From an uncultured Faecalicatena sp. (GTDB lineage: Bacteria > Bacillota > Clostridia > Lachnospirales > Lachnospiraceae): DNA of 64,000 nt. The notes beneath the pieces are model-generated. The model was not told the DNA's origin, did no database searches, and worked only from the letters and a program-made list of their open reading frames with translations. Positions within the stretch are counted from its first letter, which is position 1, and each line of letters begins with the position of its first letter. The stretch is from assembly GCA_948468385.1 (NCBI GenBank), contig CAOKHZ010000006.1:1-64000 (forward strand), given 5' to 3'. This document shows positions 11,660 to 39,974 of the stretch, piece after piece. The translations under genes were made by a program, and so were the position numbers.

Positions 11660-11769
11660 AAACAGTAACAGATTCCTTTCGCGCTCGTGCGCATCCTCAT
11701 TTTGTCCTTGTAATAGCGAAAAGATAAAGTTATAATAAGAATTAACACGATGAATTGCGAGGTATAAAT

Positions 11770-13461
11770 ATGGCGAGGACGGTTGCTATTGGCAAACAAG
11801 ATTTCGAAAAAATCCGATTGGGAAACTATTTTTATGTGGACAAAACATCCTTCATCAAGGAATGGTGGGACGGCGGAGACGACGTGACGCTGATTACCCG
11901 TCCCAGGCGATTTGGCAAGACCCTGAACCTTAGCATGGTGGAGCAATTTTTCTCCGTCAAATACGCGGGGCGAAAGGACTTGTTTGAAAACTTGTCCATC
12001 TGGAACGAAGAAGAATACCGCGAGCTACAGGGAACTTACCCGGTGATTTTTCTAAGCTTCGCGGACGTGAAAAATACATCCTTTTCTGACACGCGGGAAA
12101 CAATGTGCCGATTGATAAAGGCATTATATAACACATACGACTTCCTGCTGGAAGGAAACTGCCTGAACGAAGACGAGAAGAAAGAATATCAGGAGATTTC
12201 CCCTGACATGAGCCTTTCCTTGGCGGCGAATTCCCTAAAGGCGTTGTCCGGTTACCTGGCACGCTATTACGGCAAAAAAGTCATCATCTTGTTGGACGAA
12301 TACGACACGCCCATGCAGGAAGCCTACGTGGACGGTTATTGGAAAGAACTGATTTCATTCATGAGGGGCTTGTTCAATGCCACGTTCAAGACGAACCCTT
12401 ATCTGGAAAGGGCACTGATGACCGGCATCACGAGGGTGAGCAGGGAATCCATTTTTTCAGATTTTAACAATCCCGAGGTGGTGACCACGACCTCGGAAAA
12501 ATATGAGGATTCTTTTGGCTTTACGCAGGATGAGGTCTGGGAAGCGTTAAAGGAATATGGCTTATATGAGGAACGTGAAAATGTAAGGACATGGTATGAC
12601 GGGTTCACCTTTGGCAGGAAACGGGACATTTATAACCCGTGGTCCATCATTAATTTTTTGAAGAAAGGCAAATTTACCTCTTACTGGGCAAACACGAGCA
12701 GCAACAGCCTGGCTGGGAAGCTAATTCGCGAAGGTAGCGCGGACGTGAAAGTCACCATGGAGGACTTGCTGGCGGGCGGAACGCTCCATACGAAGATTGA
12801 CGAGCAAATCGTGTACAACCAGTTGGACAACGGTGACAGTGCTGTCTGGAGCCTGCTTTTGGCAAGCGGATATTTGCGCGTGGAAAACTACGAAATCAAT
12901 GAGGACGGGGAGGAAAACTACGAACTAAAACTCACCAACAAGGAAGTCGTCCTTATGTTCAAAAAAATGATAAACGGCTGGTTTCAAACGCCCGCGTCGG
13001 CGTATAACGCATTTATCAGAGCCTTGCTTTCTGGAGACGTGGAGGCCATGAACGCCTATATGAACCGAATTACTTCCACGACATTTAGTTTCTTTGACAC
13101 TGGAAACGGTTCAACGGAGGAATCAGAACCGGAACGCTTCTACCACGGCTTCGTGCTGGGGCTGATGGTCGATTTGTCAAAGCGGTACAAGATTACTTCA
13201 AACCGGGAGAGCGGTTACGGGCGGTACGACGTGATGCTGGAACCGCGGAACAAGGAGGACGATGCCATCATCATCGAGTTCAAGGTCTGCCGGAAGGCGA
13301 AGAACCAGACGCTTGAAGCGGCCGTTAAAGAGGCAGTGCAGCAGATTGAAGAGAAGAATTACGCGGCAAACCTGGTGGATACCGGCATAAGCCTGGAGAG
13401 AATTAGGAAATACGGGTTCGCCTTTGAAGGGAAAAAAGTGCTAATCGGCTCCGCACTTTGA
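11770..13461 (+). CDS. AAA-ATPase-like protein with PD-(D/E)XK nuclease domain
   Basis: The N-terminus has the predicted AAA-ATPase (PF09820-type) opening FYVDKTSFIKEWW with a variant Walker A, RPRRFGKT, near residue 40, and a Walker B-like ILLDEYDTPMQEAY near 180. The C-terminal ~120 residues match the PD-(D/E)XK nuclease-like domain often fused to it: YGRYDVMLEP followed by AIIIEFKVCR. Such genes are abundant in Lachnospiraceae and Bacteroidetes, often in many copies. Their role is unknown, with mobile or defence functions suggested. The ATG at 11770 follows a GAGG by 8 nt, and the upstream TTG at 11755 lacks one. It stands alone, with hairpins on both sides. Confidence 0.9.
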   Translation: MARTVAIGKQDFEKIRLGNYFYVDKTSFIKEWWDGGDDVTLITRPRRFGKTLNLSMVEQFFSVKYAGRKDLFENLSIWNEEEYRELQGTYPVIFLSFADVKNTSFSDTRETMCRLIKALYNTYDFLLEGNCLNEDEKKEYQEISPDMSLSLAANSLKALSGYLARYYGKKVIILLDEYDTPMQEAYVDGYWKELISFMRGLFNATFKTNPYLERALMTGITRVSRESIFSDFNNPEVVTTTSEKYEDSFGFTQDEVWEALKEYGLYEERENVRTWYDGFTFGRKRDIYNPWSIINFLKKGKFTSYWANTSSNSLAGKLIREGSADVKVTMEDLLAGGTLHTKIDEQIVYNQLDNGDSAVWSLLLASGYLRVENYEINEDGEENYELKLTNKEVVLMFKKMINGWFQTPASAYNAFIRALLSGDVEAMNAYMNRITSTTFSFFDTGNGSTEESEPERFYHGFVLGLMVDLSKRYKITSNRESGYGRYDVMLEPRNKEDDAIIIEFKVCRKAKNQTLEAAVKEAVQQIEEKNYAANLVDTGISLERIRKYGFAFEGKKVLIGSAL

Positions 13462-18029: not shown

Positions 18030-18231
18030 AAGGAGGTTGCGCTGCCACTAAGCTCGAAAGAACCTCGCCAAGTGGCCCGCAACTACATTCGCACATGCAT
18101 GAACAAGCGGAAACTCCGCGTAACTAAGTTCGAAAGAACCTTACCAAGGTACGCGGAGTGCATTCACACTAAGCTCGTGTGAAACCTCGCCAAGTGTTCA
18201 TTGCAAATGCTCATAGTAAGGAGGTTGCGCT
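18030..18231 (+). repeat. Leader repeat element, full copy
   Basis: A 14-bp direct repeat AAGGAGGTTGCGCT bounds the element at 18030-18043 and 18218-18231. Inside are three related stem-loops: CCACTAAGCTCGAAAGAACC...AAGTGG at 18045-18075, a second at 18113-18159 with an outer ACTCCGCG/CGCGGAGT stem, and a third at 18167-18196 ending CCTCGCCAAGTG. The right-hand direct repeat is the Shine-Dalgarno of the TetR gene at 18233. Related copies precede the genes at 38855 (shortened) and 37667 (right end only). The rest of the 17888-18232 gap holds the glgB promoter area without a clear promoter match. Confidence 0.75.
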
Positions 18232-18232
18232 T

Positions 18233-18769
18233 ATGGATTTACGTGTACAAAAAACAAAGAACAGCATCTTGGACGCCTTTATCGAACTACGCTCCGAAAA
18301 ACCACTGGAAAAAATCACGGTCAAGGAGCTATCCGAACGAGCCCAAATCAGTAAACAGACTTTTTATCTTCATTATAAGGACATCTATGACCTATCCGAG
18401 CAATTAGAACAAGAATTGGTAAAGAGCCTCGTGGACAGCCTCACGCACCAGGAGCACTTGCTGGAGCACTCCAAGGAGGCGACGCTGGAATTATTCCACG
18501 CCGCTGCCACTCAGAGTTCCCTTTTCCGCACCGTCTTCTCCGGTTCCCGTACCGCCGCTCTGACAGAAGGTCTCGAACGCGAGATTAAGAAAATCATCCT
18601 CGCCAACAATCCGGAGGTGGAACACGACCTGAAAGCCAATATCTGCCTGACCATCCTGATACACGGCTGTTACCTCGCCTATCAAAAATATTCCGCGGAC
18701 GCGCCGGAAGAAGTTGCACAGATACTCAGCGAGATTTCGGGGGAAATTACCGCCCGGTGCCGGTCGTAA
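18233..18769 (+). CDS. TetR-family transcriptional regulator
   Basis: The first ~50 residues form a TetR DNA-binding domain: LEKITVKELSERAQISKQTF followed by YLHYKDIYDL. The rest is an all-helical ligand/dimer domain of the kind in TetR/AcrR C-terminal families (DhaS-like length, 178 residues). The ATG at 18233 follows AAGGAGG (18218-18224) by 8 nt. That RBS belongs to a duplicated repeat element, which makes the whole leader unusual. The target is unknown. Downstream lies a decayed gene and then the glycogen/xyloside enzymes. Confidence 0.88.
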   Translation: MDLRVQKTKNSILDAFIELRSEKPLEKITVKELSERAQISKQTFYLHYKDIYDLSEQLEQELVKSLVDSLTHQEHLLEHSKEATLELFHAAATQSSLFRTVFSGSRTAALTEGLEREIKKIILANNPEVEHDLKANICLTILIHGCYLAYQKYSADAPEEVAQILSEISGEITARCRS

Positions 18770-36677: not shown

Positions 36678-37667
36678 TTATTCGCTCTTCAGCGCGTCGT
36701 CAAACGCGATATTTGACGCCTGGAAGTTAATGCTCTTCACGAACTCGCATGCTTCGGTCGCGCCGTACACGCGATCCATGCCGCTGTCCTCCCACTCGAC
36801 GGACAACGGCCCCTGATAATCGGCGGCGTTGAGCACGCGAATAATCTTGTCAAAGTCCACGTCCCCATGTCCCGGGGAAGCAAAGTTCCAACCGCGCTTC
36901 ATGTCCCCGAACGTCAAATGAGAGCCCAGAATGCCATTTCTCCCGTCCAGGTTCACGAACGCATCCTTGATGTGCACGTGGTACACCCGGTCAATGAAGT
37001 CCTGCAAGAACAGCGTCGGGTTCACGCCCTGCCAAATCAGATGGCTCGGGTCGAAATTAATTCCCAGCGTCGGACGATAGTTAAAAGCCTCCAGAAGCCG
37101 CTTCGTCGTCCAGTAGTCAAACGCGATTTCCGTCGGGTGTACTTCAAGCGCGAATTTAATACCGCATTCATCAAACACGTCAAAAATCGGCGTCCACAAA
37201 TCCACCTGCTCCTTGTACGCGGCCTCAATCATTTCCTCGCTGGTCTGCGGGAACGAATACCAATATTTCCATACTGCCGAACCCATAAAGCCGGTCACGA
37301 CCTTGCATCCCATCGCCTTGGCGGCCCGTGCCGTGTCCTTCAATTCTTCGATAGCCCACTCGCGAATCTTTTCCGGCTGCCCCGCCAGCTTCGACGGCGC
37401 GAACCCGTCCAGACGCGGATCCCACAAATCGCCCACGCACTGCCCCGCAAGATGCGCTCCAAGCGCGGTACATTTCAAATTATATTTTGCCAGAGTCGCT
37501 TTCATTTCCTCGACGTAGGCCGGATTCATCGCCGCCTCGTGGCAATTTATCTGCCCCCAGGTCGCAATTTCCAAACCCTCATATCCCATCTCGCTCGCCG
37601 TCTTACAAATTTCCTCCAATGACATGTCCGCCCATTGTCCCGTAAATATCGTTACTGGTCTTGTCAT
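36678..37667 (-). CDS. Sugar phosphate isomerase/epimerase-type TIM barrel protein
   Basis: A 329-residue xylose-isomerase-like TIM barrel (AP endonuclease 2 fold). Likely metal ligands are the Glu of KFALEVHPTE, the Asp/His of NFDPSHLIWQ, the His of YHVHIKDAF and the Glu of LSVEWEDSGM. Such proteins act with Gfo/Idh/MocA dehydrogenases on keto-sugars or inositols, for example as dehydratase, isomerase or 3-keto-glycoside processing enzymes. The gene lies 48 bp after a Gfo/Idh gene and at the end of the sugar ABC operon, which supports that partnership. Its AAGGAGG RBS is part of the leader repeat family (37673-37704). The exact reaction cannot be told from sequence. Confidence 0.9.
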   Translation of the reverse strand: MTRPVTIFTGQWADMSLEEICKTASEMGYEGLEIATWGQINCHEAAMNPAYVEEMKATLAKYNLKCTALGAHLAGQCVGDLWDPRLDGFAPSKLAGQPEKIREWAIEELKDTARAAKAMGCKVVTGFMGSAVWKYWYSFPQTSEEMIEAAYKEQVDLWTPIFDVFDECGIKFALEVHPTEIAFDYWTTKRLLEAFNYRPTLGINFDPSHLIWQGVNPTLFLQDFIDRVYHVHIKDAFVNLDGRNGILGSHLTFGDMKRGWNFASPGHGDVDFDKIIRVLNAADYQGPLSVEWEDSGMDRVYGATEACEFVKSINFQASNIAFDDALKSE

Positions 37668-37672
37668 AATTT

Positions 37673-37704
37673 AACTTCCTCCTTACTATGAGCACTTAGC
37701 ACCC
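37673..37704 (-). repeat. Leader repeat element, right end only
   Basis: On the minus strand GGGTGCTAAGTGCTCATAG then TAAGGAGGAAGTT. This equals the right end of the element at 18030-18231 (AATGCTCATAGTAAGGAGGTT) and of 38878-38992 (AAGTGCTCACAGTAAGGAAGTT). It provides the Shine-Dalgarno of the TIM-barrel gene starting at 37667. Confidence 0.65.
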
Positions 37705-37715
37705 GTCTTTTTATA

Positions 37716-38855
37716 TCACATCTCCACCCATGTGTTCCCCGCCGCCTGGCTCTTCAAGCAAGCCGCGACATACTGCACCCCGTCCACGCCGTCGGCCACC
37801 GTCGGGTAGTCCACCATGTCCTTGGTAAACGTCCCCGCCGCCTGCGCGTTCAGGCAATCTATAAAGCTGGAATACAAATTTGCCATCGCCTCCAGCCAGC
37901 CTTCCGTGTGGCCGCTTGGCAGCCTCTGGTATTTCGCCACCTGCGGCCGAATCGCACCATACCCACGGTGGATTTCCGTGATGCTTCCATCATCTTTGTA
38001 CACCTGATAAACTTCCGGGTTCTCCTGGAACCACAAAATGCTTCCCTTGCTGCCGTAAATACGAACCCGCAAGCCATTATCATGGCCGATGGCAACCTGC
38101 GAGGCCCAGTAGCATCCTGACGCGCCGTTTTCATATTCCACGAGCACCGTGGCATTGTCATCCAGTTTCCGGTTCGGCACAATTTTCTCCATCTTCGCCA
38201 AAACCTTTTTGATTTTCAAACCAGTCATGCGGTACACCGTATTTTCAATATGCGTCCCGATGTCGCCCAGACAGTTCGTGTCACCGGAAAGCTCTGGATT
38301 GATTCTCCATTCCCCTTGCTTGTTTCCGGTAATGTCTTCCGCCGCCAGCCAGCCTTGCGGATACTCGCCCATGATAGTGCGAATCTCGCCAATCTCGCCG
38401 TCCTCTATCATGGCGCGAATGTTTTTGGCCGTCACATGCCCCGAATACGTGTACGTCACCATGAACTGCAAATTTTTTTCCCGCGCGAGCGCCTCCAATT
38501 CCTCGGCCTCCTCCAGCCTTACGCACAACGGCTTGTCGCAGGACACGGCGATTCCGGCACTCAAAAATGCCTTGCATGCGTCATAATGCGCATAATTCGG
38601 TGTCACGATCACGACGAAATCAATACCGTCCTCACGCGCCGCCTCCTTCTCGGCCATCTCCGCAAAATCGTGGTACAAGCGTTCCTCGTCCACGTGCAAG
38701 GCCTCTCCGGCCGCAAGCGTCTTTTCCCAGGTTCTGGAAAAGCATCCCGCCACGAGCCTTGCCTTGCCGTCAATGTTGATGGCCTTGCGGTGGGCGTCTC
38801 CGATGAACGCGTCCAGCGCGCCCCCCACCATTCCGTAATTCAAAACTTTGCCCAT
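37716..38855 (-). CDS. Gfo/Idh/MocA-family oxidoreductase
   Basis: An NAD(P)-dependent sugar dehydrogenase of 379 residues. The N-terminal Rossmann fold begins KVLNYGMVGGALDAFIGDAH (GxxGG variant of the dinucleotide loop). The EKP-type motif appears as VSCDKPLCVRLEEAEEL, with Lys as the usual catalytic residue. The C-terminal alpha/beta domain includes GDTNCLGDIGTHIENTVYRM, with the His of that helix also conserved. Part of the ABC sugar operon, between the permease (139 bp upstream) and the TIM-barrel gene. The family oxidises hexoses, inositols or glycosides at C3 and similar positions, and the substrate is unknown here. RBS GGAGG lies 9 nt upstream. Confidence 0.92.
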   Translation of the reverse strand: MGKVLNYGMVGGALDAFIGDAHRKAINIDGKARLVAGCFSRTWEKTLAAGEALHVDEERLYHDFAEMAEKEAAREDGIDFVVIVTPNYAHYDACKAFLSAGIAVSCDKPLCVRLEEAEELEALAREKNLQFMVTYTYSGHVTAKNIRAMIEDGEIGEIRTIMGEYPQGWLAAEDITGNKQGEWRINPELSGDTNCLGDIGTHIENTVYRMTGLKIKKVLAKMEKIVPNRKLDDNATVLVEYENGASGCYWASQVAIGHDNGLRVRIYGSKGSILWFQENPEVYQVYKDDGSITEIHRGYGAIRPQVAKYQRLPSGHTEGWLEAMANLYSSFIDCLNAQAAGTFTKDMVDYPTVADGVDGVQYVAACLKSQAAGNTWVEM

Positions 38856-38877
38856 ACGTCATAACCTCCTTCTTTCG

Positions 38878-38992
38878 AGCGTAACTTCCTTACTGTGAGC
38901 ACTTGGCGTCCGTATCCTGGACGCTTACGTGCGAACGTAGTTACCTGCAACTTGGCAAGGTTCTTTCGAGCCTAGTGCAGCGTAACTTCCTC
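38878..38992 (-). repeat. Leader repeat element, shortened copy
   Basis: Bounded on the minus strand by GAGGAAGTTACGCT (38992-38979) and AAGGAAGTTACGCT (38891-38878). Inside are CACTAGGCTCGAAAGAACC with TTGCCAAGT, then a GCGTCC/GGACGC hairpin, then CCAAGTGCTCACAG. The architecture equals the 18030-18231 copy with an 87-bp instead of a 174-bp interior. It starts right after the permease stop (38994) and ends just before the AAGGAGG of the Gfo/Idh gene. Confidence 0.75.
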
Positions 38993-38993
38993 A

Positions 38994-39974
38994 TTATTTC
39001 GATTTCTTCCGAATCATCTGGATTCCCACGGCAATCAGCAGGATCATGCCTTTCACCGTGTCATTTAACAATGCGTTCATTCCCAACGCCGTGATAATCT
39101 TGTCTATCAACGTAAATGCCATCGTTCCGAAAATGATTCCCATGATCTTGCCTTTGCCTCCTGACAAAGACAAACCACCAATCACGACCGCCGAGATGGC
39201 ATATAGCTCAAAACTTTTTCCTGAGGTCGCCGGGTCAAAGGACGTGTCCTTGGCAATCTTTAGAAATGCCGCCATCCCCGTCAGCGCGCCGCACATGACG
39301 AACATCTTGATCCTGGTCGCCACCACGCCCACTCCGGCAAGCATCGCCGCCTTCTCATTGCTTCCCAGGGCATAAATGCTCTTCCCGAACTTGGTACTCG
39401 TCGTCATGTAAATGATGGCCGCCGCGAGAAGCAAAAACACGATTGCCAAATTCGGAATCGTCAGCACGTTGCCGTTTCCAAACATGAACAAGCTCTTATA
39501 GCTTCCCAAGGAGGCATCCACGCGATAGCGCGTCTCGCCCATCTCGTTCATCATGTATTGGGAAATCGAACGAAAAATCAACATCGTCGCCAACGTCACG
39601 ATGAACGACGGCATCTTAAACCGCCCGACCAAGATTCCGTTAATCAGGCCGCAAGCCGCCCCCGCCGCGACGGCGAACAACAATGCCACGAAAATACTGC
39701 CCACGTTGTTGTAGACGATGATGGTAAGGCCGCCGACGAACACGAAAGAAGACCCCACCGACAAATCGAAATCCCCGGTCAGGACCACGAGTCCCATCCC
39801 CAAGGCAATCGTTCCCAAAATCGCGCTGTGCAGGAAAATGTTCGTGATGCTGGTCCACGACGTGGAGCTGCCGTTCACGATTAAAAACGCGAGGAATATG
39901 ATTAAAAATATAATGATGAAATTATAATCATGCCATAAATTTTTCAAGATCTCACTTTTCTTCTGCTTCGTCAT
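38994..39974 (-). CDS. Sugar ABC transporter permease (RbsC/XylH/YtfT type)
   Basis: A 326-residue permease of the ribose/xylose/galactose class with about eight to ten hydrophobic segments (FIIIFLIIFLAFLIVNG at the start, ILLIAVGIQMI at the end). The conserved motif GDFDLSVGSSFVFVGGLT and the EAA-like loop GSNEKAAMLAGVGVVATRIK are present. GGLSLSGGKGKIMGIIFGTM near the end is also typical. It overlaps the ATPase gene by 4 bp (ATGA), so translation is coupled. It forms the membrane channel with the ATPase at 39971 and the binding protein at 41683. Confidence 0.94.
   Translation of the reverse strand: MTKQKKSEILKNLWHDYNFIIIFLIIFLAFLIVNGSSTSWTSITNIFLHSAILGTIALGMGLVVLTGDFDLSVGSSFVFVGGLTIIVYNNVGSIFVALLFAVAAGAACGLINGILVGRFKMPSFIVTLATMLIFRSISQYMMNEMGETRYRVDASLGSYKSLFMFGNGNVLTIPNLAIVFLLLAAAIIYMTTSTKFGKSIYALGSNEKAAMLAGVGVVATRIKMFVMCGALTGMAAFLKIAKDTSFDPATSGKSFELYAISAVVIGGLSLSGGKGKIMGIIFGTMAFTLIDKIITALGMNALLNDTVKGMILLIAVGIQMIRKKSK

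Follow-up and report, generated by a model that had tools for sequence, protein, structure and literature searches.

In the 64,000-nt stretch of DNA analysed here (the window), three genes are preceded by related sequences. A preliminary description regarded the genes as unrelated and the sequences as a shared leader bearing a ribosome binding site (RBS), and it offered two readings: a family of leaders that coordinates the translation of a set of genes, or a repeat that targets RBS sites. This raises the question of which of the two the family is, and of how its copies come to lie where they do.

Copies of the element in the window

A search for the tail AAGTGCTCAYAGTAAGGA, tolerating up to three mismatches, gave three matches in the window (18205 on the + strand, 37680 and 38887 on the - strand), each with 0-1 mismatch, against 0.02 expected from shuffled sequences. 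The features at these places are the following.

38887..38991, - strand: complete unit, with the permease gene (38994-39974) upstream and the Gfo/Idh/MocA gene (37716-38855) downstream
38939..38987, - strand: hairpin 1 of the predicted fold, base AGTTAC/GTAACT, tip CTAGGCTCGAAAGAACCTTGCCAAG
38899..38932, - strand: hairpin 2 of the predicted fold, outer stem GCAC/GTGC, variable inner stem CGTCC/GGACG, 7-nt loop
38890..38898, - strand: tail TCACAGTAA, whose end in other copies adjoins an SD, a tRNA or 16S
38871..38889, - strand: remnant GGAAGTTACGCTCGAAAGA of the start of a second, truncated unit
38865..38870, - strand: host SD AGGAGG of the gene starting at 38855
37680..37704, - strand: 5'-truncated copy, made of the right arm of hairpin 2 and the tail, adjoining the GGAGG of the gene starting at 37667
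18031..18222, + strand: composite copy, in which hairpin 2 of a GTTGC-type outer unit contains a nested ACTCC-type unit

The complete unit begins 2 nt past the end of the upstream permease gene and is bounded by the direct repeats AGGAAGTTACGCTGC at its 5' end and AAGGAAGTTACGCTC at its 3' end, as had been described for 38878-38992. It scores 104.1 bits with covariance model R1, of which it is one of the 10 source sequences. The stretch 38880-38995 has a predicted folding energy of -38.6 kcal/mol (z -3.1) and the composite one of -65 kcal/mol (z -2.8); in both predicted folds, the SD lies outside the hairpins. The copy at 37673-37704 does keep only its right end (37680-37697), which precedes a xylose-isomerase-like TIM-barrel gene of the AP_endonuc_2 type. 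A full unit occupies the orthologous junction in G008, which, like G001, is a congener of the window's own genome (G000). The copy before the TetR-type gene (TetR_N domain; start chosen at 18233) is real and adjoins a GGAGG, but instead of a simple copy it consists of two units, one nested in the other. Thus, one family does lie in sense orientation next to the SD of unrelated genes (TetR_N, GFO_IDH_MocA and AP_endonuc_2 types, with no consistent class); the part of the earlier claim that places the RBS within the leader does not stand, as is seen below from relatives.

The window also holds, at 11755-13461 (+), a repeated gene with AAA-ATPase_like and PDDEXK_9 domains (Pfam), 62% identical to a copy at C23:43275-44984 of the same genome. 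Another relative lies at C6:121998-123698, and many further matches are found in G001 and G008. Genes of this type were considered as partners of the unit and set aside: they match in 4 of 100 short own-genome loci, two of which are the same place, with no special association.

Anatomy and fold of the unit

The alignment of copies from G000 (a draft of 4.25 Mb in 62 contigs, 94% complete) gives a repeat unit of about 101-105 bp (about 104 alignment positions) with two hairpins. In the sense of the downstream gene, it reads as follows.

Order of parts: AGGA, hairpin 1, linker ACATTCGCAC, hairpin 2, tail TCATAGYAA
Hairpin 1: stem ACTCCGC/GCGGAGT or AGTTACGCTGCA/TGCAGGTAACT, tip CTARGYTCG-N-ACCTCRCYAAG
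Hairpin 2: outer stem GCAC/GTGC, internal loop GTA/AA, variable 7-bp stem, loop AAARNAC

Compared by eye in the alignments only, the two ends of the unit (AGGAAACTCCGC / AGGAAGTTACGC and TCATAGTAAGGA) do not form an inverted repeat. AAGGA direct repeats border many copies and are common to neighbouring units in tandem arrays.

The variable stem of hairpin 2 (helix 3) changes on both sides at all seven of its pairs in a 10-sequence MAFFT alignment (A2). For the whole structure, which was read from the same A2 sequences, none of 500 shuffles comes up to the real alignment in paired cells, in cells changed on both sides or in covariation score; the count of pairs changed on both sides is reached by 2/500, and that of further pair types by 466/500. 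Hairpin 2 was then parsed in 68 copies: 52 have an alignable ordinary stem, 13 carry the hairpin-1 motif instead and three failed to parse. The 52 ordinary copies use 25 different stem arms, and 350 of their 364 pairs are Watson-Crick. A stem so variable yet almost perfectly paired is unusual for a recently spread repeat.

In hairpin 1, the pair beside the A.A mismatch was compared in 144 unique tips, collected with a fixed-tip pattern so that tip conservation is not a result of this count. It is G-C in 84, A-T in 43, A.C in 12 and G.T in one; the remaining four differ at the next position. The counts of wobble pairs do not distinguish selection on RNA from selection on DNA, with 33 G.T versus 20 A.C in hairpin-1 stems, three versus none in the inner pairs of hairpin 2, and one versus 12 at the conserved tip pair.

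Number and placement in the genome

Over the whole of G000, the tail pattern with up to three mismatches gives 47 matches, against three for the control, the pattern in reverse. Ten own-genome copies went into R1, so their matches are expected; at E<=1 the model yields at least 90 matches in G000 among the 150 of 1597 candidates scored. At E<=0.01, 82 unique matches forming 71 clusters were obtained from the 81 loci fetched out of 100 own-genome loci, a set in which overlapping tandem copies may be under-counted and which lacks the unit at C9:84616.

The preliminary description had proposed tabulating distance to start codons, and had taken copies mostly far from starts, or randomly oriented, as evidence against its proposal. 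Neither is the case. With genes called by our own codon-usage script rather than by a published gene finder, 49 of the 71 clusters end 5-45 nt upstream of a same-strand start codon; 10 are in opposite orientation, 10 lie elsewhere and two have no downstream gene at hand. One of the 10 clusters lying elsewhere, C6:92015, ends at tRNA-Cys. At the level of single units, 40 of the 82 matches end 5-20 nt before a same-strand predicted start, a class that takes 0.75% of random positions (30 of 4000) and 4.6% of random intergenic ones (27 of 584). The spacing from the upstream same-strand gene (54 of 78) varies widely, anywhere from an overlap up to 493 nt, so the fixed end of the element is its 3' end. 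An SD-like core lies within 5 nt of CATAG in 26 of 30 copies, a count partly selected since the search pattern includes TAAGGA; a start codon follows at 10-30 nt in 26 of 30, a distance that was not selected.

Seven of the 10 opposite-orientation matches score below 45 bits, and five share a distinct sequence that starts, in gene sense, with about CCGAAAGCAACTGGCATTGAAC. All five copies seen of this related subfamily antisense to the downstream gene (G000 C50:8819, C3:30489, C21:5913, C1:167784 and C19:64684; loci L073, L074, L078, L083 and L085) lie in gaps between co-directional genes; their gene-sense start is about CCGAAAGCAACTGGCATTGAACRCTT, and four of the five run into GCGAAAAGAACTTCC. 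Separately, a reverse-oriented copy at G000 C2:102731 (L067) ends, after the upstream gene, in ATGAGCACTTACGTGCTCATTTTT, which resembles an intrinsic terminator. Reversed units may act as terminators.

Junctions with tRNA, 16S rRNA and ribosomal protein genes

A tRNA scan of 54 loci from relatives and 59 own-genome loci shows that, in each of the nine same-strand cases examined, the tail stops where the tRNA is predicted to begin. The abutted tRNAs are Met, Asp (in four genomes), Glu, Asn, Thr and Cys. One of the four Asp tRNAs is cut by a contig end and was placed by hand; for tRNA-Thr, ARAGORN places the start one base earlier; and the own-genome tRNA-Cys copy has three extra bases within the tail. 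A tenth case, tRNA-Cys in L249, fits by coordinates, and in L261 and L262 tRNAs lie beside the unit but on the other strand. The first bases of the abutted tRNAs differ (GGC, TCC, GCC), which speaks against a simple DNA target motif.

A unit also stands before 16S rRNA in three of three genomes, belonging to three genera. There the R1 match extends into the Rfam 16S model over its first 11-12 positions, which puts the end of hairpin 2 at 0-1 nt from position 1 of that model. In relatives, the neighbours of the unit include tRNA, 16S, S8, L2, Era and V-ATPase A. The tRNAs and 16S rRNA are untranslated, and the proposal that the family coordinates the translation of a set of genes is not supported. 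In three genera (L244, L251, L255), the unit comes after rpsH (S8), and GCAACTGAAAACAGA follows it each time, with a hairpin-like stretch beyond; this suggests a place in the ribosomal protein operon where insertion is ancient or has recurred. This presence in three genera could also mean a retained function.

The tRNA-Glu/tRNA-Cys pair allows a comparison across the genus, limited to the spacer between the two tRNAs. The unit is full in G000, G008 and G009 and absent from the short spacers of G002-G007 and G010, the last having a short palindrome that might be a remnant; G001 and G011 are remnant-like, neither empty nor full. When G008 C10:130307-131592 is set against L066 of G000, the tRNA-Glu/element/tRNA-Cys segment runs the other way round with respect to the flanking DNA, as would follow from an inversion between the two species.

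The tRNA abutment could reflect placement at the RNA level, a structural feature, or selection for a role in processing. A rival reading is a functional module for RNA processing or 5'-end formation, in which the double hairpin and tail, once transcribed, would direct cleavage, or block a 5' exonuclease, immediately upstream of the SD, tRNA or 16S, and copies would be kept as useful. Such a module would account for the abutment at nine of nine predicted tRNA 5' ends and the 0-1 nt spacing at three of three 16S model starts, and the similarity of sequence across genera, the co-varying stem and the position of the SD outside the predicted hairpins agree with it. However, congeners lack the element at the same junctions with no obvious replacement, the downstream genes are unrelated, and the wobble counts, which could show selection on the sense RNA, are mixed (33 versus 20; 3 versus 0; tip pair 1 versus 12). 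On balance, we consider a processing role unlikely as the main reason for the family.

Presence and absence in relatives

The comparison of G000, G001 and G008 shows that the unit is polymorphic at orthologous sites. At C9:6852, the G000 unit stands between ATAA and AGGAGG; G001 is empty there (ATAAAAGAGGAGG; TTAAATAA-AAGAGGAGG), with flanks 97% and 90% identical. No exact target duplication is present at this clean empty site, and no clear duplication was seen. The site C6:130572 is filled in G000, empty in G001 (TATTAGAGGGAGG) and nearly empty in G008 (TATTAATAAGGAAGGGGAGG). At C6:133811, a possible degenerate copy of G000, recognised by the tail pattern only, faces just AAATAAAAGGAG and AACAAGGAG in G008 and G001, respectively. 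Within the window, the 38887 junction has one unit fewer in G008, which keeps a unit-start remnant, AGGAAGTTACACCGCACTAGGCGAAAG, directly before the SD (GGAGG); at 37680 the relation is reversed, with a full unit in G008 and the tail only in G000. For the 38887 junction and for C6:130572 in G008, loss by recombination between AAGGA direct repeats fits equally well. Other differences in this three-genome comparison looked like coding indels or unrelated sequence and are left uncounted.

An SD is present at the unit-less sites of C9:6852, C6:130572, C6:133811 and the window 38887 junction. The element therefore does not bring the RBS; the GGAGG belongs to the host gene. Of the two readings first offered, a repeat that targets RBS sites is thus the better supported, given the presence and absence between relatives.

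Copies also occur within and beside one another. At C23:45194, a 98-nt ACTCC-type unit of G000 replaces 14 nt of a hairpin-1 loop; the outer unit is intact in G001, and G008 has another arrangement. At C23:40724 the nested unit is in G008 and none is in G000. Head-to-tail tandem arrays with a period of about 100-105 bp are found in G008 and, before era, in Konateibacter, and closely similar ones in G009 and G007; Konateibacter massiliensis has three units upstream of era. Within arrays, the internal copies differ from the last copy, at the junction.

The family is restricted in lineage. In surveys of over 40 genomes, run with stricter filters, R1 found it in 17 of 61 genomes (best 65 candidates per genome scored), including all 12 of the genus, G000 among them, and none of the 24 from other families of the order. 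It was found in at least 34 of 200 genomes of the family, taken one per genus with G000 included, at a requested completeness of >=90% (best 19 candidates per genome scored). In the 61-genome survey, G008 has at least 65 R1 matches. A genome of another genus, G026 (L108, L123, L133), has its own subfamily with 34 matches, in which hairpin 1 is of the type AAAAATAGTAGCGCTCGAAAAAGCCTCGCTGACTATTTTT, hairpin 2 is the same and copies occur in tandem.

These data bear on the reading closest to the first description, that of a classical cis-regulatory leader, of the riboswitch or ribosomal-protein type, common to a regulon. Sense orientation, structure and location before the SD are what would be expected of it, but unrelated genes, tRNAs and rRNA follow the element, its presence varies between close relatives, and it occurs in tandem and nested copies. 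It also has no Rfam match at the thresholds given below. Because of the copy number, the polymorphism and the tRNA and rRNA neighbours, a shared regulatory leader is rejected as the main reading and appears highly improbable.

Comparison with known families

In Rfam, the window gave no match at gathering score, and 38840-39020 gave none at E<=10. For six element loci at E<=1, only two matches were obtained, both below gathering score and neither bacterial. The preliminary description knew of no described family with this layout, and in agreement no description of the element family was found in the open-access literature searched. PMC8040213 lists thousands of candidate RNAs from microbiomes, among which the element could figure as an unnamed one.

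Integron attC sites are folded sites lying between cassette genes, with core sites GTTRRRY/RYYYAAC. The element resembles them in being folded and of similar size; the cores are not evident in it by eye. As for features of MITEs, terminal inverted repeats were not seen by eye, and presence/absence at orthologous sites was found.

In the available parts of the sources cited here, the families nearest in habit to the element are BOX/RUP/SPRITE, REP/RAYT and ERIC. The BOX, RUP and SPRITE repeats of Streptococcus pneumoniae are typically <200 bp, present in 30-125 copies per family per genome and lineage-restricted; BOX is modular, with internal boxB repeats, and the pneumococcal repeats are folded if transcribed and apparently inserted into one another (excerpts of PMC3049150). 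The element is likewise small, folded, lineage-restricted and present in many copies, with mutual insertion. The same excerpts give BOX and RUP terminal inverted repeats and target duplications, and describe the pneumococcal repeats as over-represented between convergent genes (PMC3049150). In contrast, the element has no terminal inverted repeat by eye, lies mostly between co-directional genes and ends at an SD or tRNA.

REP sequences, in the portion of PMC6006769 at hand, are 21-65 nt long, canonically carry a GT[AG]G foot and are accompanied by a RAYT (TnpA-REP) gene, subclasses of atypical structure being noted. REP and BIME share with the element the many-copy extragenic hairpins and their clusters. 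However, the element is about 100 nt long with two hairpins, shows no GT[AG]G foot by eye and has no Y1_Tnp gene in G000; a RAYT/REP system was rejected on the absence of Y1_Tnp from G000 and on the poor fit of unit size and foot. The enterobacterial ERIC/IRU repeats, which are also small, intergenic and structured, are co-transcribed, and their orientation matters for mRNA stability (PMC2229807, in part). They differ from the element in lineage, and the part of PMC2229807 used here gives no abutment of ERIC to an SD or tRNA.

The element family is thus real, abundant and polymorphic. As a small bacterial repeat it is ordinary; its placement at 5' flanks, its nesting and the variability of its stem are unusual.

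Origin and mode of spread

The family combines repetition and structure with sense placement before the SD and abutment to predicted tRNAs, and it shows presence/absence between relatives as well as tandem and nested forms. The explanation that we favour, with a probability of roughly 0.7, is that the copies are non-autonomous mobile elements of about 100 bp with two hairpins, kept or placed immediately 5' of an SD, a tRNA or 16S. A trans-acting enzyme, encoded elsewhere, would recognise the hairpins and deposit a copy so that its tail, TCATAGYAA, immediately adjoins the start of a functional RNA on the 5' side, be that start the SD of the downstream gene or the 5' end of a tRNA or of 16S. As the SD or tRNA is intact behind the tail, insertion would be tolerated in operons and tRNA arrays. 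Insertion beside an existing copy would give tandem arrays, insertion into a copy nested composites, and deletion remnants. Under this explanation, presence/absence would reflect gain by transposition and not only loss, and placement would be targeted and not only selected.

Several observations count against mobility: no mobiliser gene was found in G000 with PF01797 or PF00078, neither terminal inverted repeats (by eye) nor a clear target duplication were seen, ten clusters are in opposite orientation, loss would account equally well for two of the junctions above, the rpsH sites of three genera could mean a retained function, and the Glu/Cys spacers of G001 and G011 are intermediate. Among the 11 genomes searched for the Y1 transposase (PF01797), the 94%-complete draft of G000 has no match. 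In G008 the three matches are partial, and one of them lies about 170 bp from a unit. This is the one clear unit among 24 fetched PF01797 loci; one other gives a weak match (E 0.019) and the rest have no unit at E<=0.001. No match to the element was found in viral contigs (exact pattern) or in plasmids and phages (distant blastn), and the window operon DNA gave none against plasmids.

Reverse transcriptase (PF00078, RVT_1) has no match in the same draft of G000, on which ground a partner encoded by a retroelement (group II intron and the like) was rejected; there are two matches in G001 and five in G008. These numbers also weigh on a route by RNA, in which the 3' end of the element RNA would be attached to the 5' ends of other RNAs (tRNA cleaved by RNase P, 16S, SD-protected mRNA) and the chimeric cDNA recombined into the chromosome. 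Template jumping by reverse transcriptase would be one way of joining them. Insertion of this kind would explain both the sense orientation and why the element abuts RNA 5' ends of three kinds with no obvious DNA target in common. Against it stand the zero count of G000, the counts in G001 and G008 notwithstanding, the ten opposite-orientation clusters and the lack of any sign of an RNA intermediate, and we regard it as quite improbable.

The more general idea is that a new kind of small mobile element would recognise the 5' ends of functional RNAs (tRNA, 16S, SD-protected mRNA) rather than a DNA sequence, through insertion linked to RNA or the ribosome, or through a processing site of its own that forms 5' ends. 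It is offered tentatively, as unlikely.

Significance

The element prefers the spacers between stop codon and SD and those of tRNAs, and lies flush with the start of the next functional RNA; the pneumococcal repeats, in the excerpts of PMC3049150, favour convergent gaps. If the element does recognise RNA 5' ends, it would thereby spread harmlessly, as a spacer, where the genome is most densely packed. A word of caution follows for gut Lachnospiraceae, in which conserved structures adjacent to an RBS should not be read as riboswitches. The family offers a natural, testable system for mobile DNA that enters operons without breaking translation or tRNA maturation, and for the enzyme that recognises such sites.
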